Shown: piece after piece, positions 5,401 to 55,173 of the stretch
Numbering within the stretch: the first letter of the stretch is position 1
Layout of the letters: each line of letters starts with the position of its first letter
Made by a program: the position numbers and the translations under genes
From: a virus
Length of the DNA stretch: 64,000 nucleotides
Virus record (IMG/VR): IMGVR_UViG_3300042447_000912
Coordinates: 1-64,000 of that record
Direction: 5' to 3' (one strand)
Notes under the pieces: model-generated
Told to the model about the DNA's origin: nothing
Database searches by the model: none
Seen by the model: only the letters and a program-made list of their open reading frames with translations

Positions 5401-7539
5401 GTTCCCAAATCGGCAGATGGTACACCAGGTTTTGAAGTAAATTGTACTGAGGATATTAAAAGTACAACTGGTGCTATCACTTTTCAATCACAAGTATATT
5501 CTGTAAATGCAATGGCTTGTAGAAGAGTTATAATAAAATCAATTGTTGTTGATGTACCCGATATTGAAACTATTGAACAACCGAATGTTGAAGAACAAAA
5601 AGAAGTCAAAACACAACAAGTTGATGTTGTATCAAGTAGACCTGTAGATAGAGTTCAACCAACTGTAGATATTGTTAAAAAACTTAAAGATGGTATTGGT
5701 AAAAAAATATTGAGAAACTTATTTAGTGAATGTGATTATTTTGAAGTATTGAAGGAAGAAAATCCTATGGTATATACTTCAATTGTTGAAAAAATAAAGT
5801 ATTTCAATCCGGCTTTCCATTCTATGACACCTGAAGGCTTAAATGCTCGTCTAACTTTCTTGAATCAATGTACAAAACCTGGTGAAACGATACCAACAAT
5901 AGGTCCTGATGGTAAACCAAGATACAATGATGCTCAAAATACTGCATTTGGTGCACCACCAGTTCTAATACTTAGAATAGGAGATTTTTACAATACAAAG
6001 ATAATACCTAAAAGTGTTAGTTTTACATACGAAAAAGATGGTCAATTTGATATGAATCCTGAAGGTATTGGATTACAACCAATGATAGTTTCAGTAAAAA
6101 TGGGATTTGACATTATTGGTGGTATGGGTCTTAAAGGTCCTGTAGAACAATTACAGAATGCTTTATCATTCAACTATTATGCTAACACAGAAATATATGA
6201 TGAAAGAGCAACACCTACTGATGAAAGTTATAAAGTTGTAGACCAAGAAATTATTACTTCTTTAACCGCAGGAGAAGAAGCTGCGACAACTCAAAATTCA
6301 ACACCACCACAGACAAATCCTGGTGGTTCAACTATAGGTGAAATTATTACAAATATACCAGTACCTAATGGTCAAAATGGTGAAATCTCATACGGAAAAG
6401 TAATGGACACATTAATAGACCAAAGTGTAGGTTATTTCAATAACACACTTAATACATTAGAAAAGATTACACTAAATTATAATTATGGAATTCTACAATT
6501 GGTGAATCAAAAAAGATTATATACGACTGGTTTAATGAAAGGAGCAACTTGGGCAAACCAAGATACACCAATCTGGGGTGCACCATCTAGTGTTGGTGAA
6601 ACATTGGCCACTTTATTTAAAAATGTAACTGATGATATTGATGATGATGCTAACATAATTATTGAAGAATTAAATGCTAAAAAATTTGGATTAGATTCAC
6701 CAGCAATTAAAGGAGTTAAACAAAATATGAAAGAGTATTTTAAAACACTTCAATCTGAATTTGAGAATGGTATTACAACTATAACACAAGAGTTTATAAA
6801 GTTTGAACAAGATTTTGTTTACTTAATACGACAAATAAATTTAATAAGTGAAAATACTGATGGAAAACTTTTGAATGGTAATAAACCGAGAGTTTATAAC
6901 TTAACAGGTACTTCAGAAGTAACAGCATCAAGTTTGGAAAGTAGTCCAAAACCAACTAACACTACTGAGGAATTATCTTATGATTATGAGAAAGTTTACG
7001 AAGCATTGATTGACTATAATGATTATTTGTCAGGATTGGAAACTGAGGCAAAATATACAATTATAACAACAGAAGAAGGTTTAGATGAAATTTTTCCATT
7101 GAATGATTCTTTATTTAAAGATAATTCTGAACTTCTTTTCTTTATGGTTATATCAAGAATATTCTCTGATAAAAATAAAAGGGATGGTTTTATTAATAGT
7201 ATAATTAAAGGGGAACTTCTTAAAATTTCAGACCCACTAAATTTAAAAAATCAATTTACACAGATAGTAAATAAGTTAGCTAATAAATATGATAAGGAAT
7301 TAGCGGAAGAGGAAAAAATGTTCAAAGAACTAAGAAAAGATAAATATTTAAAAAATTTCTTAAGTAGTCCTGACGAAAAACTTTATCCTAAAGGTAAAAC
7401 AAGAAAATTTAATTATACAACGATACCTAACCAAAATACTAATGCAACACAAGAAACAAATATAAAAAATGTTTTTAGTACCACTAATACTAATCAAGAT
7501 ACTCAAACATTTGATGGAAAAGTTTCATTCAATAGTTAA
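2500..7539 (+). CDS. giant baseplate/tail structural protein with internal OmpA-like domain
   Basis: The 1679-aa protein has an N-terminal half (about 1-780) that is Pro/Gly/Asn/Tyr-rich, as in virion beta proteins. Around residues 805-1015 lies an OmpA-type peptidoglycan-binding module: a GFYFDND strand, then an IEMEGAAS strand and the helix motif NKKLSQRRIDSV (about 918-929), which fits the family pattern NxxLSxxRxxxV. Near residue 1158 a LRIGDFYNTKIIPKSVSFTY segment looks like a beta module of tail-tube or baseplate proteins. The last 350 residues are helical and charged. It is followed 3 nt later by gp53, so both are probably translated from one mRNA. Its exact T4 counterpart (gp48/gp54 region) cannot be fixed by eye. 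Confidence 0.6.
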   Translation: MSESSLSFASTSSFRNSLLNRNLPPYAVTGVYTAPVGTRTYETSLSDYNVINSPDDLISQNPFVRQLYPLNEYGPEGGYNYTITYNNPPIINSSNQGEYSPNDTVLDLVNEFFIDAAYIENRYGPVGGFNDMVIIDNIQNNNKLYTPYWNPPTFVPSSYSPYQILISPDPAGDSGLLSQDSYLAKLGAQTLKKLFQDRVDADTRRNTQGTLTLDTTSDPFDISLIIAGKEPLRSKNWTITVPTTPTNESPFIQSLGGAYFPVSPIAGDYFDPVLFNAGSSTQISLALNVPNLTTGGGGLPLTLNITTNPSQNFIDNTGTGQQSALFANIDYNRYRAQYTRTSQFAQTESTINQNGTLNGGYYVGSRTSEPSTITSPPLQIPIDPFGRQVQTPVYGPSELGSLYEGNIGRLNFGLAGKSSSDGGGIDGQFVWVSPKYKSDAGFKATPGGGTGSQDEEFNLISSQYTSNESTNLQFKESSILDATQRLVNSADLVNGISRLKHVGNAINQVSKVFNDGYKELTKGSRVLSYRDNTTGAEAGIEYCRVFAKDTPYYTYGDLQKSDGITKSGRRFDYSVLDNTYNLNIAPLKNPGSTNLQPNAKGQVVAKKYMFSIENLAWRTSSKPGFTYDDLPACERGPNGGRIMWFPPYDLTFEDSADVSFDATTFIGRPEPIYTYSKSSRSGSVNWKIIVDHPSVMNTIVQKQLKGQTKEKIDSIVDSFFAGCVKFDIYELAKKFNTIPLSELYTYQEVINNPRLTKEELGQVITEISKENVPLGGQDGGNVTPPQGVKKTTPDPAKQAFVDAYLGIGFYFDNDIPSSGDIPYNSTYDGYISKKETYKTNAESAFASGGTYCKQNVEFCNRAKNVNEFFDSVVKTNYEKVSSGQKNFITDAFDLLNNKKGTITIEMEGAASATASVDYNKKLSQRRIDSVESFLKSFKIGDANLQKFIDDKKLIIKEIASGEQAKSVVPKSADGTPGFEVNCTEDIKSTTGAITFQSQVYSVNAMACRRVIIKSIVVDVPDIETIEQPNVEEQKEVKTQQVDVVSSRPVDRVQPTVDIVKKLKDGIGKKILRNLFSECDYFEVLKEENPMVYTSIVEKIKYFNPAFHSMTPEGLNARLTFLNQCTKPGETIPTIGPDGKPRYNDAQNTAFGAPPVLILRIGDFYNTKIIPKSVSFTYEKDGQFDMNPEGIGLQPMIVSVKMGFDIIGGMGLKGPVEQLQNALSFNYYANTEIYDERATPTDESYKVVDQEIITSLTAGEEAATTQNSTPPQTNPGGSTIGEIITNIPVPNGQNGEISYGKVMDTLIDQSVGYFNNTLNTLEKITLNYNYGILQLVNQKRLYTTGLMKGATWANQDTPIWGAPSSVGETLATLFKNVTDDIDDDANIIIEELNAKKFGLDSPAIKGVKQNMKEYFKTLQSEFENGITTITQEFIKFEQDFVYLIRQINLISENTDGKLLNGNKPRVYNLTGTSEVTASSLESSPKPTNTTEELSYDYEKVYEALIDYNDYLSGLETEAKYTIITTEEGLDEIFPLNDSLFKDNSELLFFMVISRIFSDKNKRDGFINSIIKGELLKISDPLNLKNQFTQIVNKLANKYDKELAEEEKMFKELRKDKYLKNFLSSPDEKLYPKGKTRKFNYTTIPNQNTNATQETNIKNVFSTTNTNQDTQTFDGKVSFNS

Positions 7540-7542
7540 ATT

Positions 7543-7866
7543 ATGGCAAGACAAACATATAACAGATACGCAGATTTTCTTTTAAACGGACAACAAACGA
7601 TTGTTCCATATATTCAACTACCAAACAAAAGTAGTGATAAAAGATACATTTATAAAATTGGGATGTCCAGAATGGATAAAGTGTCACAACAATATTATGG
7701 TTCTCCAACTTTCGGTTGGTTAATCTTGATGGCTAATCCACAATATGGTGGACAAGAATGGAACATACCTGATGGTTCTATATTGACAATACCATATCCG
7801 TTAGTAACTTCTTTACAAGATTACAAATCCCAATTAAACAATCATTTCTTCTATTATGGTAGATAG
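7543..7866 (+). CDS. gp53: baseplate wedge protein gp53-like (LysM-type fold)
   Basis: This is a short 107-aa protein. The segment from about residue 45 to 90, with DKVSQQYYGSPTFGWLILMA, NPQYG and then IPDGSILTIPYP, matches the LysM-like core of gp53-type baseplate wedge proteins: a start-up helix, YYGSP, GW and an IPDGT-like turn before a final strand. In T4, gp53 joins wedges to the hub and starts the hexagonal baseplate. It is shorter than T4 gp53 (196 aa), so only the LysM-like part seems to be present. The gene lies 3 nt after the OmpA-containing gene, and its last 11 nt overlap the start of the 2450-aa hub gene, indicating translational coupling. Confidence 0.75.
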   Translation: MARQTYNRYADFLLNGQQTIVPYIQLPNKSSDKRYIYKIGMSRMDKVSQQYYGSPTFGWLILMANPQYGGQEWNIPDGSILTIPYPLVTSLQDYKSQLNNHFFYYGR

Positions 7867-41200: not shown

Positions 41201-41638
41201 TACGATTGTCCTATACAAAACACAGAGTGTCCAAAATATCCTTGGTTAAGTGACCCAAAACTTGGTAGTTTTGGTAGTGTTTTAGGTAAATTGTTGAATG
41301 AATATCTTACTTCTATTGGTTATGACCCAAATAATTGTAGTTTGAATACGTTAACCACAGAGTGGTATGTGGATATTAGGATAGATGATATTCAAGTTGT
41401 TTCTTACCCATTCTTCAATGGAATAGGATATAATTTAATACCATTAAGTTATCCTACAACTACGAATTGGGACACAGCATTAGTTACCGCTATGAATTTG
41501 ATTAAACCACTAGGTTATGATTATTACTTTACTAGTGACGATACTATTGTAGTTTATAATCAAGTGTGTTCTGTGTCAGAAGCTGATATTAACTTCAAGT
41601 TAAATATCGGAATAAACTTCTCAATTTATTGTGTATAA
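38261..41638 (+). CDS. baseplate-to-fibre tail protein with gpI-like segment
   Basis: This is a 1125-aa protein. Residues about 335-380 (YRTNLVSRFFTTPAFKEFDT and a helical stretch) and about 440-480, with AYLFKSKGTRKSIENLLRLI then GAPEALVEFNEY, resemble the helical core of phage tail proteins of the gpI/baseplate type, in which a 'KSKGT+KSIE' helix is common. The C-terminal part is Cys-rich (about 860-1000, with DLCECISITG, YDPCCGLVKD, PNPCRPCEL) and beta. It is coupled by TAATG to both neighbours. Probably it links the baseplate to the SprB-repeat fibre encoded next. Confidence in virion location is good, in exact role modest. Confidence 0.6.
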   Translation: MAKFTCPPQTPSGAGTFANNLVGLQLVTGGGLTQGTFNFTLSASEKVNRNFSTGTFSNPISLDSMGIIDINQAKAIIENNYKVYPNFDLTQVTNFVLYGSMAKRMSAAVTQVISYFPAALESTTLRLDYSTGVTAFNVVFSLQYNETTFELDLTKIRNPFGIDYTTNSTRNLSLREIPVSTLRNMTLEYAKYSLYYNEIGYQVKRIVPTNSLTSGNLSITVVGNPFSGETNVFGNIIIRPNDSEVNKVFNENLDEVENFLLNRTSTPIYTASFVIPKEADDGTYYSDNASVTWPILGLWNLDIISSTFVDYLTVLNDISVSFDSYRTNLVSRFFTTPAFKEFDTIGQKMDKVLQIYGRSFDEVNKYITSLSYVTSVNYNVRNDIPSQLLRNLAQTLGWQTNISPITNTDFLNSVFGQTNQEKSMFSGVPVAQTPDELNYQFYRNVLLNTAYLFKSKGTRKSIENLLRLIGAPEALVEFNEYVYLADQRININKFNSYYAQISGGTLVEQTPTLESSNVFTLFGVQYTGFTTTVTIKDVNITIDEFPIDEFGFPKPITDSEAYFFQIGSGWFEQTPQHRAPEQVNSTLSVFTGLNPDYQTSLKPYTYGQEYLDRFRKFPFIQLGYNISPSVDNNKSWYDSEVLLRVNLDGNINARYFVADDKLVLNVKNTEIFLNPAQGLLYDVWYMSRLYNYPIPNQGMNYVNPNGCFPNAASCYPDRNGVDWTIINPQPKQKTFFEFAQTFWKNTINVRNRQYSTDGKTSGYPTLQSIYWKYLQSLQDVNIANNNFTYQTMIEYVNGLGDYWIRLIEQMVPATTIWNTGVKLENSIFHRQKFQWKRQRGCQIILDTPPPTPDPVDLCECISITGASVGSSTLITTLSPNGYVNGKQSFLGYDPCCGLVKDIIISYNSGSTRWEYYYDGTLVGTLNSTSDCPIGSVWSNTKNNVGTISSTNRTICPNPASFTPLRPNPCRPCELNDSLYTYDCPIQNTECPKYPWLSDPKLGSFGSVLGKLLNEYLTSIGYDPNNCSLNTLTTEWYVDIRIDDIQVVSYPFFNGIGYNLIPLSYPTTTNWDTALVTAMNLIKPLGYDYYFTSDDTIVVYNQVCSVSEADINFKLNIGINFSIYCV

Positions 41639-43779
41639 TGTCTTGTTTTTTAGATGTAGTAGTAAATAGTATAACTGGTGATTGTAGTAATACGTCCTCA
41701 GGTGCGTTTAATATAAGTATCAATGGTAGTGCTCCTGATTTTACAATTTCTTGGATTGACCCTAGTTTTGGTACAATTCCACTTAGTGGTGCCACAGGGT
41801 ACACAATTAGTGGACTTTCGGGTGGTTCTTATGTATTTAATGTTATTGATAGTTGTTCAGGAGGTAGTACAACATTTCCTGTAAGTGTCTATATTTCGAC
41901 AGGGACTTGTGTTACCTTGACAGGTGTTCAGAATACAACTTGTAATCTGAGTAATGGTAGTATTACTGCTGATACAACAAATTATTATAATTCACCTACT
42001 TTTAGTTTATACGAAATATCGAGTGGGTTTATTACTTCAGGACAAAGTTTCAACAATATCTTCACATTTAATTCTTTATCTGCAGGTACATATTATGTTA
42101 TTGCGGACGATGGTGGGGGATGTACTGGTAAATCTGAATCATGTATTGTTAAGTCATCAACTACGTTAGATTTTGGTGTATATGTCATCAATGATGCGGG
42201 ATGTGCAGTGGACTCAGGGGCAATCTACGTTACTGGTCAAACTGGAGTACCACCATACACATATTTGTGGTCAAATGGTCAAACAACCCCATCAATCACA
42301 GGATTAACACCTGGTAATTACAATGTGGTGGTGACAGATAGTGCTGGTTGTTCTAATAGTTTGGGTGTGGTTGTAAATGAAGTACCACCAATTGGATTGG
42401 GAACATTTACAATTACAAATCCATCTTGTTACACTTCGGATGGAAGTGTAACAGTTGTTACAACTGGTGGTACTGCACCTTTTTATTATTCAGGTTCTAA
42501 CGGAACTGTAACAATTACTTTTGCTTCGAGTTATACATTTACTGGTGTTGCCGCAGGTAATTTCTCAGTTAGTGTAACTGATGCTGGTTTATGTAATTTT
42601 GTGGCATCCACAATTTTGTTGACTCCGAATTCATTTACTAACGTAACAGTTTCAACAACCAACTCACTATGTAATAATAATACAGGTGTTGTTTCAGTTT
42701 CTCTATTTGGTGGTTCCCCTCCTTATTCATATACTCTGATAGATTTCACAGGAAACTCAGCAACAACAGTTACTAATGCAACAAATGTAAACTTTAATGC
42801 CTTGGAATCGGGTAATTACACCTTACAAATTACTGATGGAGGACCTTGTGTTTTTACTCAAGCTGTGACAATAAATAATACAATTTTATATACTTTAAGT
42901 TCAGTTGTATCAGGTACAACTTGTGGACAAAATAATGGTGTTGTTACTTTAAATATAAGTAGTGGAGGTACACCACCCTACATCTATCAGATGGATGGTG
43001 TTTTAGTTAACACAAGTTTGTCAGGTTATACATTTTCAGGATTAGCACCTGGTAATTACACAGCATCTGTAATTGATGCTAATTTATGTCAACAATTTTT
43101 ACCAATATTAATACCAACCTCATCCTCGGTAAATTTTATATTAAACCCAACATCACCACTATCGGGAAATGATGGGATGATAGAAACTTTTATATTAGAA
43201 GGTGAACCTCCGTTTAATTTAATATGGAGTTCAAACGCACCAAGTGGACAAACTGGTTTAACAATAACTGGTCTCACTGCTGGTACGTACAATCTAAGTG
43301 TTACAGATGATAATGGATGTACACAAGTAAGAAGTGTAACTTTATTCGGATACAATTTAATATCTTCATATCAAGTTTTAAATATTTGCAACGATAATTT
43401 TGTAAATTCGGGTCAATTAATCAAAAAGGGACTACAACAGATGTATCTTGAAGGTTTTCATGACTTAACATCAGGTGATACCAATTGTTTACTAAGTGCC
43501 GCAACTTTTGTTTGTGAAGTTAGTGTAAATGGGGTAACCAACTCAATTGGTTTTTATAATTCCACATCGTTAAACGATTTTCCAACTGATAGTGTATATT
43601 TTAATGTTGTTGAAATATTATTATCACTATACCCCGAATTAGAAACAATAACTATTGATATATCGACAGGTGAGATATTAATTAGTTCATTGTGTAATCC
43701 ATCCATTGGGATGATTGATGCAACAATAATTGTGAGTGTAATAATTCTTTACAACATAAATTGTGTAAGTTGTGCATAA
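41638..43779 (+). CDS. tail fibre/adhesin made of SprB-like repeats
   Basis: The 713-aa product starts at an ATG overlapping the previous stop (TAATG); a TTG nine bases upstream is less likely. Residues about 1-570 hold seven tandem repeats of 70-85 aa with the SprB pattern: Cys, N/DG-x-(I/V) strand, GGTPPY-like turn, GLxxGxY, V(T/I)D..xxC. The clearest unit has VPPYTYLWSNGQTTPSITGL and GNYNVVVTDSAGC. SprB is the mobile surface adhesin of gliding Flavobacterium; such repeats are nearly confined to Bacteroidota. The C-terminal about 140 residues are non-repetitive and hydrophobic at the end. It likely forms an extended fibre or spike. A bidirectional terminator follows. Confidence 0.8.
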   Translation: MSCFLDVVVNSITGDCSNTSSGAFNISINGSAPDFTISWIDPSFGTIPLSGATGYTISGLSGGSYVFNVIDSCSGGSTTFPVSVYISTGTCVTLTGVQNTTCNLSNGSITADTTNYYNSPTFSLYEISSGFITSGQSFNNIFTFNSLSAGTYYVIADDGGGCTGKSESCIVKSSTTLDFGVYVINDAGCAVDSGAIYVTGQTGVPPYTYLWSNGQTTPSITGLTPGNYNVVVTDSAGCSNSLGVVVNEVPPIGLGTFTITNPSCYTSDGSVTVVTTGGTAPFYYSGSNGTVTITFASSYTFTGVAAGNFSVSVTDAGLCNFVASTILLTPNSFTNVTVSTTNSLCNNNTGVVSVSLFGGSPPYSYTLIDFTGNSATTVTNATNVNFNALESGNYTLQITDGGPCVFTQAVTINNTILYTLSSVVSGTTCGQNNGVVTLNISSGGTPPYIYQMDGVLVNTSLSGYTFSGLAPGNYTASVIDANLCQQFLPILIPTSSSVNFILNPTSPLSGNDGMIETFILEGEPPFNLIWSSNAPSGQTGLTITGLTAGTYNLSVTDDNGCTQVRSVTLFGYNLISSYQVLNICNDNFVNSGQLIKKGLQQMYLEGFHDLTSGDTNCLLSAATFVCEVSVNGVTNSIGFYNSTSLNDFPTDSVYFNVVEILLSLYPELETITIDISTGEILISSLCNPSIGMIDATIIVSVIILYNINCVSCA

Positions 43780-44415: not shown

Positions 44416-46836
44416 TTAAATATCTAATTTGATTACAAACTGTTGAATCCCCGTTCTCGGATATGGAGATTGTAGCTTTGAAACAATCATAAGATTTTTG
44501 TCTGAATCGTAAAGACCAATTTCAGTTACGAATGGTTGGACTGAAGTATTCCACGATGGATTTGAGGAGTATTGGAATTCTGATTGACCTAATACTATCT
44601 GATACCTCATTTCATAAATTGTGGCTTGAATGTCAGTTTCTATATTACCATAAAAATAATATTCATCACCAAAATTTAATTGAGTTCCTGAAAAACCTGC
44701 CGTAGTTATATCAATATAATCACTTAAGTCATAAAGTGGTGCATTATCATATAAGTCCTGAGTTATAACAAACGTATTACCTGTTAAACCTGATTGTGTT
44801 AAATACCCATTATTACTTGTACCACTAAGTTGGAAATTATAGTCAATTATTCTCCATTGTGATGGTTCTGGTCTACCATTACCCTCAACCTTTTGACAAA
44901 TAATTTCAAATGAATCAGCAATAAAACCTGACGTAATATCACAACCTACAGAACATATACTTGGATTAGATGATAAACAATTAAATTCATCACCAAATCT
45001 TACACTAACATTTTGAGAATTCAAAGGATTACAAGTTATGTTAGGTCCTTGTATTACTTGATAATAATTAGAATGTAAAGAATTAGTATAGGCTGAAGAG
45101 TTTGATAATCGATATGTAACGTGTAAATATTCAGTTTCGCCAGTCAGAATTCCCTCAACAGATTCGTTATCCAAACCACAAATATTTGGTGTAATTAAAG
45201 CAACCTTTGGCGCTGGTAATGTCCAGTTTCTATTGGCTTTATATGACATTGCGGCAATAATCTCTTCATCATCAATAATGATTAGTTTGTGGTCAGGAAA
45301 TACCTTACCAATTCTGTTTGGTATTCCCGCAATCGGTGTTGTATTTGGGTTTGGATTAGTATCCCATAGGTGATAATATCTTATACCTGGATTATTCATA
45401 TCTTGGTTTTGATTTGACTCCAAGTAATGAACAGTAAATAATGGTATAATTAAATCATCAAAACCAGGAGGGTCAACATAAAAAGTTTGTCCATAACAAC
45501 ATTCAGGGTTTTTATGCCACATTAACCACGGAATGTGTAATTTGAAATTCCTTGCTTCTCCTATTGTATCATCAGGTTCAGTAATATCGTGAGGTTCCAA
45601 GGCGAATTTTTCACCATAGAAAAAATCAATCGTATTATTAGTATAATGAATAATAGCAATGGCCTTTTGTTCTTCAGGTGTAACTACAACCTTTTCATCA
45701 AAAGAGTTATAATAATAAGTTGAATCAGTATCGGTTTGTCCACTACTTGAAGCGTAACCAAAATATTCTTTAGACCCCAAATAATCAATAGAACCAAATT
45801 TAGTATAATCTTTGTGTGTTGAGGAATTTATACCTGCTGGACTTTCTGACCAAGGAATATTCATATTCCAAATTTTAACATCAAATTGGTCAGTATAACA
45901 AACCGATTCAAAATTGATAACATCATATGGGAAGTGTTGAGATGGTGTTACACTATCATAAATCTCAGTCATTCCTGATGGATATACAATTACACGAGCA
46001 TAACAATCACCACTTAAATATGTAAAATCAGGTGTTGACCTATCCAAAGTTATATTATCCAAACAAACATCAACAATTCGATATGTTAAAATCGTATAAC
46101 AACTTGACATATCCACAACACAAGTTGCAGTATAACTCGGTAAACACGGGCCACAATTAGTCACAGGACAAGTTGTGGTTGTAGTTGTTGTTGGAGGTGA
46201 TGGTGGACTACAAGCGTCAGTTGTTGTTGTTGTCGTTACTGGTAAGGTAGTTGTAGTAGTTGTTGCAGTGAAACAATTACAGTCATTAACACCATTACCA
46301 TCATAAATTATCGTTATAAAATCACCAATTTGATAGTTCCTAACAAAATCATTGTTACATGTAATTGCCGAAACCACAATCAAATTTGAACCATTCAAAC
46401 CACTCATTTGTATTACATAGTTAGATGTTAGTGCGTAGTCACCTGTGGTTATTGCACTCCACTCTATGTTTGAACCTGATGTTGTACCTAAGAAAAACCC
46501 CCTTGGTGATGCTGTATTATACACTGGACTTACAATCGATTGCATAAATGGGATTCCATATGTATTTCCGTTGTTACCATCCACGTAGTAAGGGTATTTA
46601 ATGTTTTCCTTATTTGATTGAGGAACACCTGCCGAATTTTGAGCATTGAAACTTGGCTCTAATACTCTACTATTATATTGGTTATAACTTGTTTGAGGAA
46701 TAGCATTATACGAAACTTCACTATCACCAATTTGAAAATAACTTATATTAAAATTACCTTGAGAAATTTTTTGTCTCCCAGTATCGGTAATCCTTGTGTT
46801 TATTAAACCTGCTGTGTTTTTTAAAATATATCCCAT
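44416..46836 (-). CDS. tail fibre/collar-type protein with Thr-run linkers
   Basis: The 806-aa protein has an N-terminus (1-40: MGYILKNTAGLINTRITDTG, ISQGNFNISYFQIGDSE) like fibre proteins that attach to the baseplate. Near residue 190-225 come two Thr-runs (TTTTTTLPVTTTTTT, later PPTTTTTTT) flanked by Cys and Pro. The middle is Cys-containing beta sequence. The C-terminus, with FVTEIGLYDSDKNLMIVSKL, resembles the gpH/collar domain of tail fibres (VTEIGLYD..xxLvavgk), so an ancestral short domain seems split by an insertion of about 650 aa. A late-type motif lies 11 nt upstream of the ATG on the minus strand. Likely a host-binding appendage. Confidence 0.65.
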   Translation of the reverse strand: MGYILKNTAGLINTRITDTGRQKISQGNFNISYFQIGDSEVSYNAIPQTSYNQYNSRVLEPSFNAQNSAGVPQSNKENIKYPYYVDGNNGNTYGIPFMQSIVSPVYNTASPRGFFLGTTSGSNIEWSAITTGDYALTSNYVIQMSGLNGSNLIVVSAITCNNDFVRNYQIGDFITIIYDGNGVNDCNCFTATTTTTTLPVTTTTTTDACSPPSPPTTTTTTTCPVTNCGPCLPSYTATCVVDMSSCYTILTYRIVDVCLDNITLDRSTPDFTYLSGDCYARVIVYPSGMTEIYDSVTPSQHFPYDVINFESVCYTDQFDVKIWNMNIPWSESPAGINSSTHKDYTKFGSIDYLGSKEYFGYASSSGQTDTDSTYYYNSFDEKVVVTPEEQKAIAIIHYTNNTIDFFYGEKFALEPHDITEPDDTIGEARNFKLHIPWLMWHKNPECCYGQTFYVDPPGFDDLIIPLFTVHYLESNQNQDMNNPGIRYYHLWDTNPNPNTTPIAGIPNRIGKVFPDHKLIIIDDEEIIAAMSYKANRNWTLPAPKVALITPNICGLDNESVEGILTGETEYLHVTYRLSNSSAYTNSLHSNYYQVIQGPNITCNPLNSQNVSVRFGDEFNCLSSNPSICSVGCDITSGFIADSFEIICQKVEGNGRPEPSQWRIIDYNFQLSGTSNNGYLTQSGLTGNTFVITQDLYDNAPLYDLSDYIDITTAGFSGTQLNFGDEYYFYGNIETDIQATIYEMRYQIVLGQSEFQYSSNPSWNTSVQPFVTEIGLYDSDKNLMIVSKLQSPYPRTGIQQFVIKLDI

Positions 46837-46860: not shown

Positions 46861-47586
46861 TTATGTGACGATAATGTTACAACAATAACATCCTGATATA
46901 GAAACATTACTTAAAGTGTAATTTTCAACACTTTGACCTAAATAACAAGCGACATCTTGGTTTTTAGTTGTAGTTGTATATGTTGTTAATATTAAAGTAT
47001 CTGAATTTGTATAAGTGAGATTGTTCCATCCCTCAGTGTACGAAGTGATGTAAACATTTTGATTTTGACAACCTGGTGTTGGATTATAAGTTGTACTCAA
47101 AGTCGAACTTGAGTATGAAATAGATTGTGTGACACTATTTTTAACCAAGTCACTCGTTGACGTTGTTGTAGAAGTACCTGAGAATGGAGAAGATTTTGAA
47201 GTATTTAAATGTACCAAATTAAATGTTATAGTTACACCACTTGGTAAACTTGGAAACACTGAAATAGTTGTATCGTATTTTTTTGTTAATGTTGTATTGT
47301 TATTAACTATTGTTGTTGACGAAGTATTAATTGTAACGTTGTATGTTATTGAATTATTCGATGTGTTTAGAATAACAGAATTTGTTGATGTTTCACCCGA
47401 CACGTCTTTTACAATAACAGAGTATTGACCAGGACATAAATTACTAAATAATGGTGTATTAAAATAGGTTAAACCATTATTAATTGAGTAGGAATATGGT
47501 GGTGTTCCATTGTAACCTTGAATTGCAAAAGAACCATCACATCCACAAATTGTATCATTTATATTAACAGTTGAAGTTAAAATCAT
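46861..47586 (-). CDS. SprB-repeat protein, fibre component
   Basis: The 241-aa protein has one SprB-like repeat at residues 8-75: CGCDGSFAIQGYNGTPPYSY, then SNLCPGQYSVIVKDVSGE. The rest is Thr/Ser/Asn-rich beta sequence with a repetitive look (STTIVNNNTTLTKKYDTTIS, LSTTYNPTPGCQNQNVYITS) and ends CYCCNIIVT. No signal peptide is visible, as expected for a virion protein. It starts 3 nt after the stop of the 731-aa gene and has no own late motif, so it is probably cotranscribed with it. It is perhaps an accessory module of the same appendage. Confidence 0.6.
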   Translation of the reverse strand: MILTSTVNINDTICGCDGSFAIQGYNGTPPYSYSINNGLTYFNTPLFSNLCPGQYSVIVKDVSGETSTNSVILNTSNNSITYNVTINTSSTTIVNNNTTLTKKYDTTISVFPSLPSGVTITFNLVHLNTSKSSPFSGTSTTTSTSDLVKNSVTQSISYSSSTLSTTYNPTPGCQNQNVYITSYTEGWNNLTYTNSDTLILTTYTTTTKNQDVACYLGQSVENYTLSNVSISGCYCCNIIVT

Positions 47587-47589
47587 ATA

Positions 47590-49785
47590 TTAGCTTGTTG
47601 AAGTAAATGTGTATGTACTTGTTTTAGTACCCCCAGCAACTAAATTGGCTGTTAATGTAACTAAATAAGTATGTGTATTACCAATCGGAGGACACGGGCC
47701 TTCCCATCCTTGAGTATTTGAAGCACCTGGGTCACCTGTGGTTGGATTTATTGTCACACCACCAGGCCAAGGTATTGATGAACTAACCTGAGTGGTTGTA
47801 TTTGGTATATTTGTTACATCCCAATGAATATATCCCGGATTGTCTAAATCTTCACAATAAATTTCAAAACTACTAATGTCTGAACTTGTTAAACCCCCCA
47901 ACAAATACCATTTAAACCAAGGAGTTTCATTAGAACCACCACAAGCCCCTGAAAATTTAAATGTTGTTGGTATGTCACTATCATCTAACGCCCACCAAGC
48001 ATTAATTGTTAAAGATAAAAAGTCAGAACAAGCACCTATTGATGTTATAGTTTGTTGTTGAGGACTTGGAGGATTAACAGACATTGTCCATGCTCCTGAA
48101 GTTGGTGAACTTGGATATCCTTTGAATATAGTCCAAGTAGATGTACCTAAAGCTGTATTTATAATACTACTTGTTGATGCCGATAACGACCATACTCCCG
48201 AAGTACCAACAGATGGGTTAAAATATACAATTTCATTACCAGAATTTGATATCCAAGATGTTTGGCCATTTATATAAGTGTTATATTGGAAAGTAATTTG
48301 AGTTGTGGTTGGAGTAGGTGTACCGCCAGTCCTTTTGGTTGTCGTAATTGACATACAGAAAATATTTTCTAAATAGTTTGGAACTGGAGGTAAAGTTGTT
48401 GTTGATGTTGTAGTCGTTGTAAAACCAGGTACTGTACAAGTTGTTGTGAAAGTATAGTCACCATAATAGTCACTAACAACGGCAGTATAACTACCAGTAG
48501 ATAGACCATTTATTGTCTTACCACCTATTAGTGTAGCACCATTAGGAAAAGTCCATTCTATTGTGTATGGAGGAACACCACCAACGATACTTAATGTTAT
48601 TGAACCATTTGAACTATCAGGGTTTCCAGTAATATTTGTTACATTACAGATTACGTTTAATGGTTGTATAGTGAGTACGTTACAATCATTTACTGGTATA
48701 TAACCCGAGTTTATATATGACCTAGTTGTTGTAGTTGTCGTTGAAGTGGTAGGTGTTACACCAGTACAAGGTGTTCTTAAAACTTGTGAACAAAAAGGTG
48801 AACCCGAACATGTTACTAATGTAAATCCACTCGAACAAGTTAACCCAGTAACACCTGAATTATCAAAAGTAGTACCCGTTAAATCTCTTGTGGTGAATAC
48901 GGTTACTAAGGTTAATGCTGATTGGGAAGTAATTGCACTCAAAGACGAAACACTACCTGAATAAATTTCAGCACCGAAACCACCAGTAGCTCCTGTACTT
49001 GAATTTAGACCTTCCATTTGAATATAATTCGGTCCTGCTGGTAAAGTTATTGGGAAAACTGACCAAGTTGAAAAAGTTTGACCATGTGTTCTATAAGCTG
49101 AAAATGAATTGTACTGATTACCGAAAGTAAAACCACTTGTATTAGCTTCAACTAATAACACACCATTTAATTTAAATCTGTAAAAATCGTCAGCACCCAT
49201 TCCCAAATAATAGGTTTGAGATGTTGGATTATTGAAACAAGCAGTGAAACCAATCCATTCATTTGCTGGAGAAAAAGGTGATGTTGTTGTTGGCCAAACA
49301 CCTGAGTAATTTAATCTACCTGGTGAATTGGGTAGAAAAGTTGTTGATTTATTACCCCATACTGTATTAGAATTAGCACATGGCCAAATTCTAGGTCCGT
49401 GAGTTGTTGCACTTAATGAACAACTTTCTAATAAACCACTTGGAGAAACAATACTTTGACCAGCACCCGGGCCTCCCAAAATATAATTTAAAGTTCTATC
49501 CTTCAAACTTTTGGTAGTATCAGAATCTATAAAAAATGATGTGTTGAATAAGGGTGTCCCATTTTTTGTTTGAGAACCAGTTGTAATTCCTGTCAGTATA
49601 ATTGGAAACGTCAAATTAGTTATGTCTTCATAAAAAATTGTCCCCATATATCCGTTGGTAGAAAACTGACCTGCTTTCAAAACAACAAGAGTTGAGGCAG
49701 AACCACTGGTTGATGCGGTTACTTCTCTTATACACTCAGAATTATCAGGTGCTGCGGTATAACCAGATGGACAAAAACAACTCAT
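47590..49785 (-). CDS. multidomain adhesin: PA14-like domain, SprB repeat, Thr linkers, C-terminal PEBP-like domain
   Basis: In this 731-aa protein, residues about 130-290 contain a PA14/GLEYA-like beta domain (YYLGMGADDFYRFKLNGVLL). A Thr linker (about 350-358) is followed by an SprB repeat (370-450: SNGSITLSIVGGVPPYTIEW, GLSTGSYTAVVSD). A second Thr linker (about 455-468) precedes an unknown domain. Residues about 590-731 match the phosphatidylethanolamine-binding protein (PEBP/YbhB) pattern: DIPTTFKFSG, YIHWDVTNIP and WEGPCPPIGNTHTYLVTL, with the HW, GPCPP and GxxHxY ligand-pocket elements in order. Small Cys-rich N-terminus (MSCFCPSGYT). It is probably a receptor-binding virion protein. 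Confidence 0.7.
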   Translation of the reverse strand: MSCFCPSGYTAAPDNSECIREVTASTSGSASTLVVLKAGQFSTNGYMGTIFYEDITNLTFPIILTGITTGSQTKNGTPLFNTSFFIDSDTTKSLKDRTLNYILGGPGAGQSIVSPSGLLESCSLSATTHGPRIWPCANSNTVWGNKSTTFLPNSPGRLNYSGVWPTTTSPFSPANEWIGFTACFNNPTSQTYYLGMGADDFYRFKLNGVLLVEANTSGFTFGNQYNSFSAYRTHGQTFSTWSVFPITLPAGPNYIQMEGLNSSTGATGGFGAEIYSGSVSSLSAITSQSALTLVTVFTTRDLTGTTFDNSGVTGLTCSSGFTLVTCSGSPFCSQVLRTPCTGVTPTTSTTTTTTRSYINSGYIPVNDCNVLTIQPLNVICNVTNITGNPDSSNGSITLSIVGGVPPYTIEWTFPNGATLIGGKTINGLSTGSYTAVVSDYYGDYTFTTTCTVPGFTTTTTSTTTLPPVPNYLENIFCMSITTTKRTGGTPTPTTTQITFQYNTYINGQTSWISNSGNEIVYFNPSVGTSGVWSLSASTSSIINTALGTSTWTIFKGYPSSPTSGAWTMSVNPPSPQQQTITSIGACSDFLSLTINAWWALDDSDIPTTFKFSGACGGSNETPWFKWYLLGGLTSSDISSFEIYCEDLDNPGYIHWDVTNIPNTTTQVSSSIPWPGGVTINPTTGDPGASNTQGWEGPCPPIGNTHTYLVTLTANLVAGGTKTSTYTFTSTS

Positions 49786-49811: not shown

Positions 49812-50789
49812 TTATTGATTGTTTTGAACAATCTTTTTCATTATTTCGATGTATTTTATTGTTGAACTATTTTTCTCCACGTAATCAAAAAAATTAATGT
49901 TGGTTTTCAATTTATCTAAAGGACTTACATTAATAAATTCACCTTTATAAAATTTTGAAGATTTCAAGTCATCGGTAACACCTGCCATATGTAGTATTGA
50001 ATGTTGATTATAAATCTCCATTGAATCTGTTGCCCACGAAAAACTTAATTCATCTGATATTTTAGTTTCATAATTATGTAACCATAAATTCCACAATAAA
50101 GACCACATTTCTGCTGTCCAAAATTGTATTTCACCAGGACTTATCGGAAATCTTTTTTGGTAACTCAACATTTGGTCATAAAGTGGTGTACAATCTTCAT
50201 AAATTTTTTTCCATAGTTCTTTTGTCGTGTTTTTCAACAAATACTGACCACCACCTGAGTTAAGTTGGTTTTCTTTTATAGTATTAACATCAATTCCTAT
50301 AATATCACTCATTTCTCTCAAAAGTTGACCTTTTTGTGAGTTTGGATGTCTTCCTTCATATCTTTTACAACAATCCATAATGTAGTTGTAACCAATATAA
50401 CCGATTGTATCTGATAAATAATTTATTTCATCTTTGAGTAATGAATTGAAATCAGGTAATTTTCTGAATACAATATCAGCATCGTGTAAAAAAATATTTC
50501 TACTTAAAATCGGAAACTCCTCAATTAATTTGTAAACTAAAAATGGTTTTATGTTAGGTATATAATGTTTTTGTTTTCTATCATCTAAATAATGATGAAC
50601 ATTAATTCCTAAATCTTTTAAATTTAAGGATTCATCACTAGGTTTGGTATTACCATAAACCATTGCAAATACAACGTGTATTTGATTTGGATTGATTCCC
50701 ATCTCAATAAAGTTGTGAACATAAACTCTTACTTGCCAATGAAAGTAAGGAACATCTGGTTGTGCTGATACAAAAATTAAATCCTCCAT
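49812..50789 (-). CDS. glycosyltransferase-like protein (GT-A, DxD motif)
   Basis: The 325-aa protein has a Rossmann-like N-terminal half (LIFVSAQPDVPYFHWQVRVY, then QIHVVFAMVYG) and the metal/nucleotide-sugar motif FLHDADIVF with DAD at 103-105. The C-terminal half contains NSGGGQYLLKNTTKELWKKI and SPGEIQFWTAEMWSLLWNLW, patterns common in GT-A enzymes for acceptor and sugar binding. It is flanked by fibre genes on the same strand and has a late-type motif, so virion proteins, perhaps their Thr-rich linkers, are likelier acceptors than DNA; that is inference. Its start codon lies inside a hairpin (50780-50810). Confidence 0.72.
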   Translation of the reverse strand: MEDLIFVSAQPDVPYFHWQVRVYVHNFIEMGINPNQIHVVFAMVYGNTKPSDESLNLKDLGINVHHYLDDRKQKHYIPNIKPFLVYKLIEEFPILSRNIFLHDADIVFRKLPDFNSLLKDEINYLSDTIGYIGYNYIMDCCKRYEGRHPNSQKGQLLREMSDIIGIDVNTIKENQLNSGGGQYLLKNTTKELWKKIYEDCTPLYDQMLSYQKRFPISPGEIQFWTAEMWSLLWNLWLHNYETKISDELSFSWATDSMEIYNQHSILHMAGVTDDLKSSKFYKGEFINVSPLDKLKTNINFFDYVEKNSSTIKYIEIMKKIVQNNQ

Positions 50790-50818: not shown

Positions 50819-52033
50819 TTATAAATAATATAAAACATCCGCAGCCCCAATAAAAGTAGCATTTGCACCTAATGGTGTTATACATAACCACATTTCATCT
50901 AAAGTACCATTAACATTTGAACCAACTCTTATTTGATTGTCATCTAATTTAGTGGTCGTTAAAGCAGATGTACCAGCCTGACCAATTAATGATGTCATTA
51001 CGTGTCCTGGTGTTGTTATTGTTGGAGTTCCATCACTTAAAGAATATTGAAAAGGTGAGTTAGGTATATCAGTCCAACTTGGCGTTGAAGATAATGTTGG
51101 ATTGAATTCTATAGTCAACAAGTAATTATCGTTTGAAGTGTTTAAGATACTGATTGTGTCAAACTGAGATGTTACACCAATGTAATTTTCTTTTAATCTA
51201 TAGCCAATATATGGGTATTTTGTACCTGAGGTGGCCATCGTAGTTGTTGCGGTATGTGGAATTGAAACCGTAGAATACAAACCATTCAATGCACCTTCTG
51301 TAGATACTTGAGAACAAATCATATCAAAATAACCTGAACCAACACCAACTTGTCTTATTTCATATCTAATTGGTTGATTCGGTGAAGACATATATACTGT
51401 TGGAATATTGTTAGCAGCAGTATAATCAATAAAATATATTGTTTGACCTGATAAAACCATACCAAATCTCACTCTACCTACACCTAACCATTGATAATCT
51501 ACAGTCATTAGATTTGTTTCAGCCCAATCAAAATTATTTGGGTCGAATTCGGTTGAGTTCCAAGTTGTTGAGTCAGCACTAAAAGTACAAGAACCACTTA
51601 AGAATATATTAAATGTTATTGCGCTAGTAACACCATTACTTTCCAAAAAGTAACCATCAAATACTGAATTATATGGTGACCCTGTTGTTGATTGAAAACA
51701 CCCAACTCTTTTAATAACATTGGATTCAATTTGAAAATTACTAAAACTTCCCTCAAACAACTGACTTTTACCTGGTTGGTAAATTGGATGTGTTTTAGTT
51801 TTACGAATAACTAAATCATTGTTAGCTGATGTTGACATTCTAACTCTTGCGTATTGTTGACTAAATACGGATGTTGCAGTACCAGCAGTTACCTCACTAA
51901 CCTGAAGTGGATTTTTATCAAATGTATGTTTAATATCCAAAAGATTTTGGACTGCGGCAGTCCTTAATCTACCGAAAGCGTCTAAGTTAGGTCCATCTGA
52001 ATATTTTATTGAGTTATTAAAAATGTATGCCAT
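50819..52033 (-). CDS. phage structural protein with DAFGRLR N-terminus
   Basis: The 404-aa protein has an N-terminus (SIKYSDGPNLDAFGRLRTAA, then DIKHTFDKNPL) of a type I recall from a widespread family of phage virion proteins that begin with a 'DAFGRLR' motif followed by a DxxxxYDKxP segment. The remainder is beta-rich (YFLESNGVTSAITFNIFLSG, QPIRYEIRQVGVGSGYFDMI) and ends in a hydrophobic VLYYL. No enzymatic motif is seen. It starts 1 nt after the stop of the upstream fibre gene on the same strand, so it is expressed with it. Probably a fibre or capsid-surface decoration protein. Confidence 0.65.
   Translation of the reverse strand: MAYIFNNSIKYSDGPNLDAFGRLRTAAVQNLLDIKHTFDKNPLQVSEVTAGTATSVFSQQYARVRMSTSANNDLVIRKTKTHPIYQPGKSQLFEGSFSNFQIESNVIKRVGCFQSTTGSPYNSVFDGYFLESNGVTSAITFNIFLSGSCTFSADSTTWNSTEFDPNNFDWAETNLMTVDYQWLGVGRVRFGMVLSGQTIYFIDYTAANNIPTVYMSSPNQPIRYEIRQVGVGSGYFDMICSQVSTEGALNGLYSTVSIPHTATTTMATSGTKYPYIGYRLKENYIGVTSQFDTISILNTSNDNYLLTIEFNPTLSSTPSWTDIPNSPFQYSLSDGTPTITTPGHVMTSLIGQAGTSALTTTKLDDNQIRVGSNVNGTLDEMWLCITPLGANATFIGAADVLYYL
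50820..50827 (-). promoter_or_regulatory. putative late promoter TATTTATA (minus strand)
   Basis: It starts 38 nt before the glycosyltransferase ATG and overlaps the stop region of the upstream structural gene. Confidence 0.5.
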
Positions 52034-53211: not shown

Positions 53212-55173
53212 CTAAAATCCACCATCAATCAAAGTACCTCCTTTACCTGTATCACCAATAGTTGAAATACAAATAGTACAATTTTCGAAGAAACTTACAC
53301 CTGAAGTTGGAAAACTGTTTCCTGACAAATAAGTTGAAGTTGAACCCAAAGGTAACGTTGGATATGTGGTTGAATAAGAAATAAATTTCCAACATTGTCC
53401 ATTGTATGGTGAACTTGATAAACTGAATACTTGATTTGGAGTATATGTCGGACCTGGTAAAGTTTGTATTACATATTGAGTTGGGTCAGAACATCTCTGA
53501 TACAAATAATAACCAACTGCTTGTGAAGACGTTGGAGTAGGTGTTAATGTTGGAGTGATGGATGGGGTTGGTGTAATTGTAGGGGTTGGGGTTATATCAG
53601 GAGTACAAACACTATCACAACTTGACAAACCAGTGATACTTCCCAAAGGACCATCAACCAAATCTATTTGGTCAACACCGATTACGTCTAATTCTATACC
53701 TAAGAACACAACACACTTTGAAACACCATTTATATTTGCCTTGAATATATCTGATTGTGTTAAAGTACCACCTGATGGTAATATTATTGGATTTACAGCA
53801 TAATATAAACTACCATTTGAACAATCAACGAACTTCTTACTCGAAGGACATTCTAATATTCCAATTACTGGATTAAAGGTAACTGTTCCTGAGATATTAC
53901 AAGGTCTTGTCACTTCAGGTGTCATTGTAGGTGTTACACTTATTGTTGGTGTTGGAGTTGGTGTATAACCAGTAATTGTTGCATCCAATGCTCTACCACC
54001 ACAAGGGTCACTTGGTGTTGGTGTTGGAGTTATTGTTGGTGTTAAAGAGATTGTAGGTGTTACACTCGGAGTAGGAGTAACTTCACAATCAAAAACCGCA
54101 GTGAAATCTAAAACTGAACAATTTACAGTTGGTGTTGGTGTTGGTGTTGGACATGCTCCACTGAAAACATAATCATCACATAAATCGGGACAACTTGAGT
54201 TACAAGGATATGGTCCTTCAAGTAAACAAGAGCCACCCAACGTAGTCGATAAACACCAAGTACCTCCAGTTGTAAAATATATAAAGTCACCATTCGTTGT
54301 TCCAGACCAATATGTTTCACTATTATATGTACCAGCAGACAAGTAGGTGTCATCATAACCTAAACCTGTGTCACTTATACAATATATGGGTGGACAACCC
54401 AAACAAGAAATTAATTCACTAAAAAGATTAATTGAAGAACCTGTTAAATCCGATAAACAATTTAAAGCATTATCAATAGTTGTTGTAGTAAATGATGGAC
54501 AATAACTTGTTGTTAATGAACCAGCACCCCTTGGAACTGATGTGGTTAAATTTTCTATTTCCCAATCATTAGTGTCCCAATACATTACCATAAAGTCACC
54601 ATTGATATTTGTAAACGTATAATATTGTCTGCCATTTATAATACCATCATTGTATAATCCTCTATAATAATAACCACCTGAATATTCGATTCCAAGTAAT
54701 AGACAACATTCATCTATATTACATTGATATGTATTTGTACAATCAACACAATCTGTAAAAATAACTGGAATTGCAAAATCCATTTGTAATGCTGTCACAT
54801 ATGGATATGATGCTGCGTCACCATCGTCTGTAATGTTATGACATCCATAACTAACGTTAGTACTATTAGTAAAAGCTGCAAAGTAGACATAATATGACGC
54901 ACCTGAAAAACCTGATAACGAATTAGGAATTTCGACAGAAAATGAATCAACAGAACAACATGCAGAAAAATCGTAGGTTAAATCTAAAGTACCTTGTAAT
55001 TGTACATCCAAACCCACATAAGTTGAACCAGTAACGGATTCATCAGCTGAAATATAAAATGTTTGACTTGGTGGTATATTAATTATAATATTACTACCTT
55101 GAGAATCTATGAATGTGAATCCACTATATAATGTAGAACCTGTGTTTGCAACAAAAAAGCCGTAATTAGCCAT
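53212..55173 (-). CDS. Cys-rich adhesin with Thr-Pro linkers
   Basis: This is a 653-aa protein. Residues 1-150 form a beta domain; 150-330 are Cys-rich with aromatic repeats (GRQYYTFTNINGDFMVMYWD; later YNSETYWSGTTNGDFIYFTT and WCLSTTLGGSC), looking like two copies of one small lectin-like fold. Then come four Thr-Pro linkers at about 341-350, 363-391, 403-415 and 526-550 (for example ITPTPTITPTPSITPTLTPT) separating short Cys-containing domains. The C-terminal 100 residues (GYYLYQRCSDPTQYVIQTLP, CWKFISY, FFENCTIC) form another Cys-rich module. It follows the 71-aa gene by 5 nt. Probably a flexible multi-domain host-binding fibre. Confidence 0.6.
   Translation of the reverse strand: MANYGFFVANTGSTLYSGFTFIDSQGSNIIINIPPSQTFYISADESVTGSTYVGLDVQLQGTLDLTYDFSACCSVDSFSVEIPNSLSGFSGASYYVYFAAFTNSTNVSYGCHNITDDGDAASYPYVTALQMDFAIPVIFTDCVDCTNTYQCNIDECCLLLGIEYSGGYYYRGLYNDGIINGRQYYTFTNINGDFMVMYWDTNDWEIENLTTSVPRGAGSLTTSYCPSFTTTTIDNALNCLSDLTGSSINLFSELISCLGCPPIYCISDTGLGYDDTYLSAGTYNSETYWSGTTNGDFIYFTTGGTWCLSTTLGGSCLLEGPYPCNSSCPDLCDDYVFSGACPTPTPTPTVNCSVLDFTAVFDCEVTPTPSVTPTISLTPTITPTPTPSDPCGGRALDATITGYTPTPTPTISVTPTMTPEVTRPCNISGTVTFNPVIGILECPSSKKFVDCSNGSLYYAVNPIILPSGGTLTQSDIFKANINGVSKCVVFLGIELDVIGVDQIDLVDGPLGSITGLSSCDSVCTPDITPTPTITPTPSITPTLTPTPTSSQAVGYYLYQRCSDPTQYVIQTLPGPTYTPNQVFSLSSSPYNGQCWKFISYSTTYPTLPLGSTSTYLSGNSFPTSGVSFFENCTICISTIGDTGKGGTLIDGGF
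53525..53600 (-). repeat. Thr-Pro codon repeat
   Basis: Low-complexity tract encoding a Thr-Pro linker of the 653-aa adhesin. Similar tracts lie near 53930-53965, 54010-54085 and 54128-54150 (GTTGGT-type hexamers on the plus strand). Confidence 0.75.

Follow-up and report, generated by a model that had tools for sequence, protein, structure and literature searches.

What is a domain of the phosphatidylethanolamine-binding protein (PEBP) family doing at the end of a large phage protein? The question is raised by the virus record IMGVR_UViG_3300042447_000912 of IMG/VR, of which we analysed a stretch of 64,000 nucleotides (positions 1 to 64,000), referred to here as the window. An open reading frame on its minus strand, at 47590-49785, codes for 731 amino acids and contains, in order, the three PEBP strings quoted in the initial annotation. 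According to the parts of PMC8793217 cited here, PEBPs are found in every domain of life, and their fundamental biochemical function is contested. The best supported account of the window domain is that it belongs to a phage lineage of PEBP domains used interchangeably on surface proteins, tail-associated or other, with the polar cavity intact in most of the members found. The parts of the protein and its surroundings are as follows; L-numbers are labels of IMG/VR loci or contigs.

47590..49785, minus strand: 731-aa modular surface-type protein with PEBP domain; gene identical in five IMG/VR contigs
48760..49785, minus strand: N-terminal Cys-containing domain (residues 1-342), shared with an upstream gene of L263 and L285
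48421..48693, minus strand: SprB-like region (residues 365-455) between Thr-rich linkers, linked by blastp to slot proteins
48034..48384, minus strand: 'WSLSAST' region domain (residues 468-584), directly before the PEBP domain; limits set by eye
47590..48030, minus strand: PEBP domain (residues 586-731; 146 aa), without the C-terminal part of cellular PEBPs
46861..47586, minus strand: 241-aa protein, counterpart of the C-terminal half of the undivided slot protein in sister phages
44416..46836, minus strand: 806-aa neighbour, whose relatives bound the variable slot
49812..50789, minus strand: phrog_4417 protein (E 6.5e-70), the other boundary of the slot
50819..52033, minus strand: phrog_1645 virion structural protein (E 3.6e-50), in the same gene run as the PEBP gene

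A PEBP domain at the C-terminus

Residues 586-731 are a PEBP domain. Pfam PF01161 matches with an E-value of 1e-11 and 45.7 bits against a curated cut-off of 24, whereas TIGR00481, at E 1.5e-9, stays below its cut-off of 57.75 (37.8 bits for the whole protein, 42.1 for the domain alone); the domain is a member of the PEBP family and falls short of assignment to the YbhB/YbcL subfamily. The solved YbhB (PDB 1vi3) matches in sequence at E 8.4e-6, the profile of phrog_5139 matches the protein at E 5.4e-9, and an HMM built solely from 75 PEBPs of genome contigs gives the 731-aa protein 53.2 bits, compared with 7.6 bits for the best of 1000 shuffles of the domain, which rules out chance similarity. 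AlphaFold2 modelled the domain alone with a pLDDT of 86.4 and a pTM of 0.83 from an 81-row alignment that is mostly cellular PEBPs, so that the model is biased towards the PEBP fold and is not independent of them; the full-length model, from a three-row alignment, has a pLDDT of only 31.7. Searched with the domain model, Foldseek returned seven PDB chains at E<=0.001, all of them PEBPs and from four different proteins, and VIA-align superimposed 133 residues on YbcL (1fux) with Z 14.8, 2.6 A and 29% identity, the best row that is neither a PEBP nor PEBP-like having Z 8.6. The viral structure library gave nothing at E<=0.001, a kind of null result that cannot prove absence. The initial annotation had placed a PEBP-like domain at the C-terminus of an adhesin, and profile matches and fold comparison bear out the domain and its C-terminal position: the predicted structure is that of a PEBP and not of an unrelated fold. 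Its span of 47590-48040 began at the right base and ran 10 bases too far, the exact end being 48030.

YbhB and YbcL (PF01161, TIGR00481; PDB 1fjj, 1vi3 and 1fux) share with the window domain the fold (Z 14.5-14.8) and the Asp, His and Tyr of the cavity; a cysteine pair of the window domain is present in YbcL and absent from YbhB. In contrast to both, the window domain is the C-terminal module of a 731-aa protein, has a shorter C-terminus and carries Thr in place of an Arg, while the cellular PEBPs sampled are separate proteins.

The N-terminal domain matches PA14 at 0.038 only and has no relative among solved structures (best E 0.74). Pfam SprB does not reach 0.01 on the 731-aa protein itself; its SprB-like region was recognised through blastp matches to slot proteins, of which 44 in a set of 57 carry Pfam SprB. 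Relatives of the 731-aa protein in L006 and L014 are 83% and 74% identical.

A variable slot and seven architectures

The PEBP gene occupies a slot between the phrog_4417 gene and the gene of the 806-aa protein. The former has 210 relatives in IMG/VR, and across the best 80 of these 210, which were compared, the content of the slot varies; five of the 80 loci (L106, L107, L134, L143 and L153) gave no row. The slots hold 103 ORFs of at least 120 aa, and a Pfam scan of the 57 non-redundant ones found SprB in 44 and PF01161 in three, all three of window type. One of the 57 matches DUF5122 beta-propellers (6e-31) and one LRR_4 (0.003). In the whole records of 50 slot relatives, selected from 73 loci not of window type, PF01161 found no match (0/50) and a profile of the phage domain found two (L262 and L285), so the domain is rare in sister phages.

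The slot variants disclose how the window protein is put together. In L243 the slot holds one 476-aa protein that runs from a SprB-like region through a next domain and a second SprB repeat to a Cys-rich end. In the window type, by comparison, the PEBP domain closes the first half, and the second half is encoded by the separate 241-aa gene, which starts three bases past the stop codon of the PEBP gene and whose product matches residues 238-476 of the L243 protein at 50%. L263 shows the split in this slot but no PEBP domain, and L262 and L285 have a divergent PEBP domain on a different N-terminus. At this locus the PEBP domain is therefore a terminal piece that can be exchanged. Modular receptor-binding and tail-fibre proteins of phages likewise have a variable slot, linkers and an exchangeable C-terminal domain, and a variable C-terminal domain on a shared scaffold is what we find (no PEBP in L263, a degenerate PEBP in L285, a SprB-type end in L243). 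In contrast, no PEBP domain is described in any such protein that we found, and the gene of the window protein was encountered only in metagenomic virus contigs.

Several further features of the cassette deserve mention. In L263 (675-1583) and L285 (1894-2793), a relative of the window gene at 53212-55173 bears the MSCFCPSGYT-type N-terminal domain of the PEBP protein (41% and 38%), and therefore domains shuffle between cassette genes. A 716-aa protein with four SprB repeat matches (window 41629-43779) lies beside the cassette on the other strand, and the L014 version of the 806-aa protein (4588-7818) has 1076 aa, with an insertion, judged by eye, before its last part. The phrog_4417 protein may be glycosyltransferase-like, as its sequence appears by eye; it anchors a cassette whose proteins have Thr and Thr/Pro linkers, and these linkers could be its substrates for glycosylation.

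Apart from the record analysed here, 18 IMG/VR contigs carry the PEBP domain, several being copies, in seven architectures including that of the window:

731-aa type: seven contigs
514-aa protein: two contigs with identical proteins
877-895-aa protein with C-terminal PEBP domain: four contigs, L339 being the same as L351, and the L393 frame having 883 aa in the whole record
Internal domain between Thr/Pro linkers: L345, in a 1722-aa frame
196-aa protein with a Gly-rich stretch: L347
Fusion with a subtilase: L327
173-aa gene: two contigs (L333 and L391), differing at 9 of 173 residues

Protein-pattern scans recovered the seven window-type contigs (five with the identical gene, one with 92% and one with 68% identity in the domain) and L262/L285, and otherwise only separate PEBP genes of 155-194 aa. 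A scan of DNA for the motif W-x-GPCPP-x-G gave 71 stretches, 15 of them with an ORF carrying the PEBP domain at E <1e-15 under a model that included the window type: six of window type and nine new ones (L327, L333, L339, L345, L347, L351, L391, L393 and L396). Four weak rows (L363, L374, L350 and L371; E 1e-4 to 0.04) were set aside as chance matches around the motif, and L381, the L006 contig, was missed because its locus begins inside the gene. Since six protein-pattern scans had missed the nine contigs that the motif scan added, absence claims drawn from such scans are weak, and a one-off fusion can be rejected. Pfam confirms the domain in L327, L345, L339, L396, L333 and L347 (5.6e-19 to 1.2e-12) and misses it in L285. 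Most of the other phage domains have only 30-43% identity to that of the window and sit in unrelated carriers.

L333 has a tail context: the gene run of its 173-aa PEBP gene also encodes a tail fibre/host-specificity protein (phrog_2056, 2.1e-6), a baseplate wedge-tail fibre connector (phrog_677, 7.9e-29) and a protein with matches to both phrog_9158 and Peptidase_S8 (1.2e-10 for the latter); the tail-fibre cluster is seen in the near-copy L391 as well. Of the 331 phage records matched by the L333 connector, at least 325 bear the name Synechococcus, Prochlorococcus or cyanophage. L347 encodes a ribonucleotide reductase and, beside its PEBP gene, a protein with a weak minor-tail match (1.1e-4), and L339 has a DNA polymerase on the other side of its PEBP gene. 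In the window, the direct neighbours of the PEBP gene have no tail PHROG match; whereas tail genes are adjacent in L333, the gene run of the window offers only the phrog_1645 virion structural protein; 130 phage records match it, and 121 of these carry the name Synechococcus, Prochlorococcus or cyanophage. The phage itself has a baseplate wedge protein, encoded about 20 kb from the PEBP gene, a DnaB-type helicase, a ribonucleotide reductase, a primase and an SbcC-like protein. Six phage records match the wedge protein, namely those of an uncultured phage at 28%, a Microcystis phage at 24.5% and four immuto-group Flavobacterium phages (26%). SprB repeats are a feature of Bacteroidota, and together with the matches of the wedge protein they suggest a Bacteroidota host.

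This context bears on whether the protein belongs to the virion at all. An intracellular or released protein made late in infection would fit the form of the PEBPs sampled elsewhere, which stand alone as proteins of 141-345 aa in the genomes and of 155-194 aa in prophage loci. However, Thr linkers and a SprB-like region, the lack of a signal sequence by eye, the shared gene run with phrog_1645 and the tail cluster of L333 make such a protein very improbable here, and a module displayed on the virion remains the reading that we prefer.

The relatives also bring proteases into view. PEBP and protease genes are close together in three of them, fused in L327 (357-2591), two genes apart in L333 (5007-7190) and directly adjacent in L351 (4609-5868, upstream), and there may be a functional link. 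Yeast carboxypeptidase Y inhibitor is a PEBP that acts on a serine protease. By analogy, the domain could inhibit or steer a serine protease, either shielding the carrier protein from proteases of the host surface or guiding a protease of the virion. The fusion with Peptidase_S8 in L327 (PF00082 at 4.3e-25, PF01161 at 5.5e-17), the S8 protein two genes off in L333, the phrog_20754 protease directly upstream in L351 and a structural match of the window domain to carboxypeptidase Y inhibitor (1wpx, Z 9.1) all speak for such a partnership. We nevertheless regard it as quite improbable, given that Pfam and PHROGs recognise no protease near the window gene, that Pfam confirms neither the protease upstream in L351 nor the related protein in L396, and that adjacency may simply reflect tail clusters that hold both kinds of gene.

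The polar cavity and the cysteine pair

Five polar residues of the PEBP cavity, two Asp, two His and one Arg, are described as nearly invariant in the part of PMC8793217 that we cite, from which the FT numbering below is also taken. The window protein has the following residues at the cavity and at the cysteine pair:

47848..47850, minus strand: Asp646 (domain D61), equivalent to FT D71
47842..47844, minus strand: Asp648 (domain D63), equivalent to FT D73
47824..47826, minus strand: His654 (domain H69), equivalent to FT H87
47671..47673, minus strand: His705 (domain H120), equivalent to FT H118; the next residue is Thr706
47941..47943, minus strand: Cys615 (domain C30), likely disulfide partner of Cys698
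47692..47694, minus strand: Cys698 (domain C113), likely disulfide partner of Cys615; kept in 12 of 12 aligned phage domains

Tyr707 of the cavity is kept too, and the salt-bridge Arg is replaced by Thr706. This Arg is present in 67 of 77 comparison PEBPs and absent from 10, hence frequent and not diagnostic. The comparison set (75 PEBPs from genome contigs and two host-type copies from prophage contigs) was chosen for resemblance to the phage domain, with a motif filter requiring both Asp, both His and the Tyr, so that the presence of these five in 77 of 77 is due to the filter; the counts for Arg and Cys are unaffected. Equivalents of C30 and C113 are both present in 68 of the 77, both absent in eight and present singly in one. 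The pair suggests a disulfide between Cys615 and Cys698 and an extracytoplasmic setting.

In an alignment of 12 phage domains, with a mean majority fraction per column of 0.53, the Asp, Asp, His, His and Tyr of the cavity are kept in 11, the exception being L285. Several Trp, Gly, Pro and Cys positions are kept in all 12, among them the Trp that precedes GPCPP, the Cys pair and one further Cys; the salt-bridge Arg is found in only two. The constancy of GPCPP itself is partly by construction, as this motif was the search key in finding five new rows and more, and the independent number is below 12, with L333/L391 and window/L006 being close pairs and L339, L393 and L396 being related. The pocket His and Asp, for which the initial annotation had advised a check, are kept here, in the relatives with 92% and 68% domain identity and in 11 of the 12 phage domains; loss of the pocket in all relatives, which it had named as fatal to its proposal along with an unrelated fold, is confined to one lineage. 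In this lineage, L285 (7100-7552) and L262, the domain is retained, its cavity residues are swapped and its Cys and Trp positions stay; the L285 alignment is uncertain at position 61, which reads D in one alignment and H in two others. Section 6 of PMC8793217, as far as we draw on it, names multiple cavity changes for only two other PEBP groups. The domain has an omega of 0.061 against L006 and 0.139 against L014 (dS 0.94 and 1.82), so it is under purifying selection, as are the other regions measured.

A fold that persists where its pocket is lost might have a purely structural task. The domain would then be a compact beta-sandwich that caps or stabilises the protein, with cavity residues that help it fold and with recognition left to other domains. 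L262 and L285, which keep the domain with its cavity residues replaced, the weak matches to FN3-type modules in both Foldseek and VIA, and the better conservation of several Trp, Gly, Pro and Cys positions (12/12) than of the cavity (11/12) are in line with such a decoration module. We consider it unlikely, however, as the cavity is kept in the other 11 aligned phage domains, mostly at 30-43% identity and in unrelated carriers.

The cavity might also catalyse rather than bind, the domain acting on a small molecule or an envelope group in the manner of the activity proposed for the family as a whole. In the passages cited here, PMC8793217 argues that the cavity is an enzyme centre and likens the set of two His, two Asp and one Arg to catalytic centres. 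That source itself offers the enzyme role as a hypothesis, however, and the fifth residue, the Arg, is replaced in 10 of the 12 phage domains, so that an enzymatic tip appears rather improbable to us.

The preferred reading, by contrast, assigns the cavity a binding role. As proposed, the C-terminal PEBP module of a phage surface protein, most likely displayed on the virion, would present a polar cavity formed by Asp646, Asp648, His654, His705 and Tyr707 and held by the probable Cys615-Cys698 disulfide; this cavity would bind a small polar or anionic group of the host envelope, such as a phosphorylated group or a sugar on LPS, glycan or lipoprotein, and would do so during adsorption. We hold such a virion-displayed binding module to be a serious candidate that falls somewhat short of probable. 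In its favour are the PEBP fold, the cavity kept in 11 of 12 phage domains, the seven carrier architectures, the tail-fibre cluster around the L333 gene, the variable SprB-rich slot with an allele lacking the domain, the cysteine pair, purifying selection and the single clade of phage domains. The loss of the cavity with retention of the fold in L262/L285, which indicates that the fold can persist without the pocket, counts against it, as do the Thr in place of Arg in the window, the rarity of the domain in sister phages, the lack of a tail PHROG match in the direct neighbours of the window gene, the internal position of the domain in L345 and the view, held in the cited part of PMC8793217, that a cavity with two His and Asp fits an enzyme better than a binder. 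As for the ligand, a weak point of the initial annotation is its premise that PEBP pockets bind phosphate-containing headgroups. Section 6 of PMC8793217, in the part cited, records phosphoethanolamine and other small polar ligands in the PEBP cavity and states that phosphatidylethanolamine has not been seen there. Binding of a lipid headgroup by the window domain is unsupported, the family name being all that speaks for it.

Descent and significance

We searched 50,697 phage records by tblastn, using as queries the domains of the window, L014 and L327, the L347 protein and YbhB of E. coli, and found ybhB/ybcL-type genes and weak rows in four unannotated records, with no recognisable virion-type protein among them. 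The match in MT835538 lies in a 207-aa frame, so there is no large fusion; that in OR851037 is the end of a ybcL-type gene, that in OR847342, which could be assigned to no gene type, is on a fragment whose main ORF is RelA/SpoT-like by eye, and MT839731 is a weak row (E 9). In the open-licence literature, among the matches listed, we found no paper on a PEBP in a phage virion, fibre or receptor-binding protein, which agrees with the remark in the initial annotation that no phage receptor-binding protein with this fold is known to have been described. Among nine records tested, the best match to phrog_5139 comes from the ybcL gene of a lambdoid phage, which lies outside the tail genes, and the virion-type phage domains make up a different branch of the tree. 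Giant-virus PEBP homologues are likewise virus-encoded (PMC8793217, in the part cited), and the viral structure library contained one weak row of Orpheovirus (E 0.054). In contrast to the window domain, they belong to eukaryotic viruses, and in what was seen there is no sign of a virion module.

A tree of 52 rows places ten phage domains in a single clade against 42 cellular-type PEBPs (100/99), recovered in 200 of 200 bootstrap trees. The 42 were picked by hand from the 77 comparison rows and include two host-type prophage copies, and L285, L391 and L156 were left out. Four phage rows also group in an 81-row tree (100/99), with long branches and an unsettled bootstrap. The sample of cellular PEBPs is limited, and a cellular PEBP might fall inside the phage clade. 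A host-derived moron gene, as in phages DN1 and PhiR34_1, was rejected as an origin, since the window domain is fused and lies on another branch. The best reading of the sequences is that the phage lineage would represent a mobile domain passed among the tail-fibre and adhesin-type proteins of large, partly T4-like, uncultured phages. A wider proposal is that large aquatic phages share a distinct virion PEBP lineage, as a host-contact domain that can be exchanged and whose conserved polar cavity recognises a single, shared small group of the envelope; we put this forward tentatively, as possible and rather doubtful.

If true, this would make the PEBP fold a new class among those by which phages recognise receptors, and would give a viral PEBP the task of binding a ligand outside the cell. 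A phage lineage that retains the cavity on different carriers offers an independent way of testing which ligand it binds. The range of folds known from phage tip domains would grow by one, and genes that PHROGs labels 'unknown function' are marked in uncultured phages, cyanophage-like myoviruses among them.
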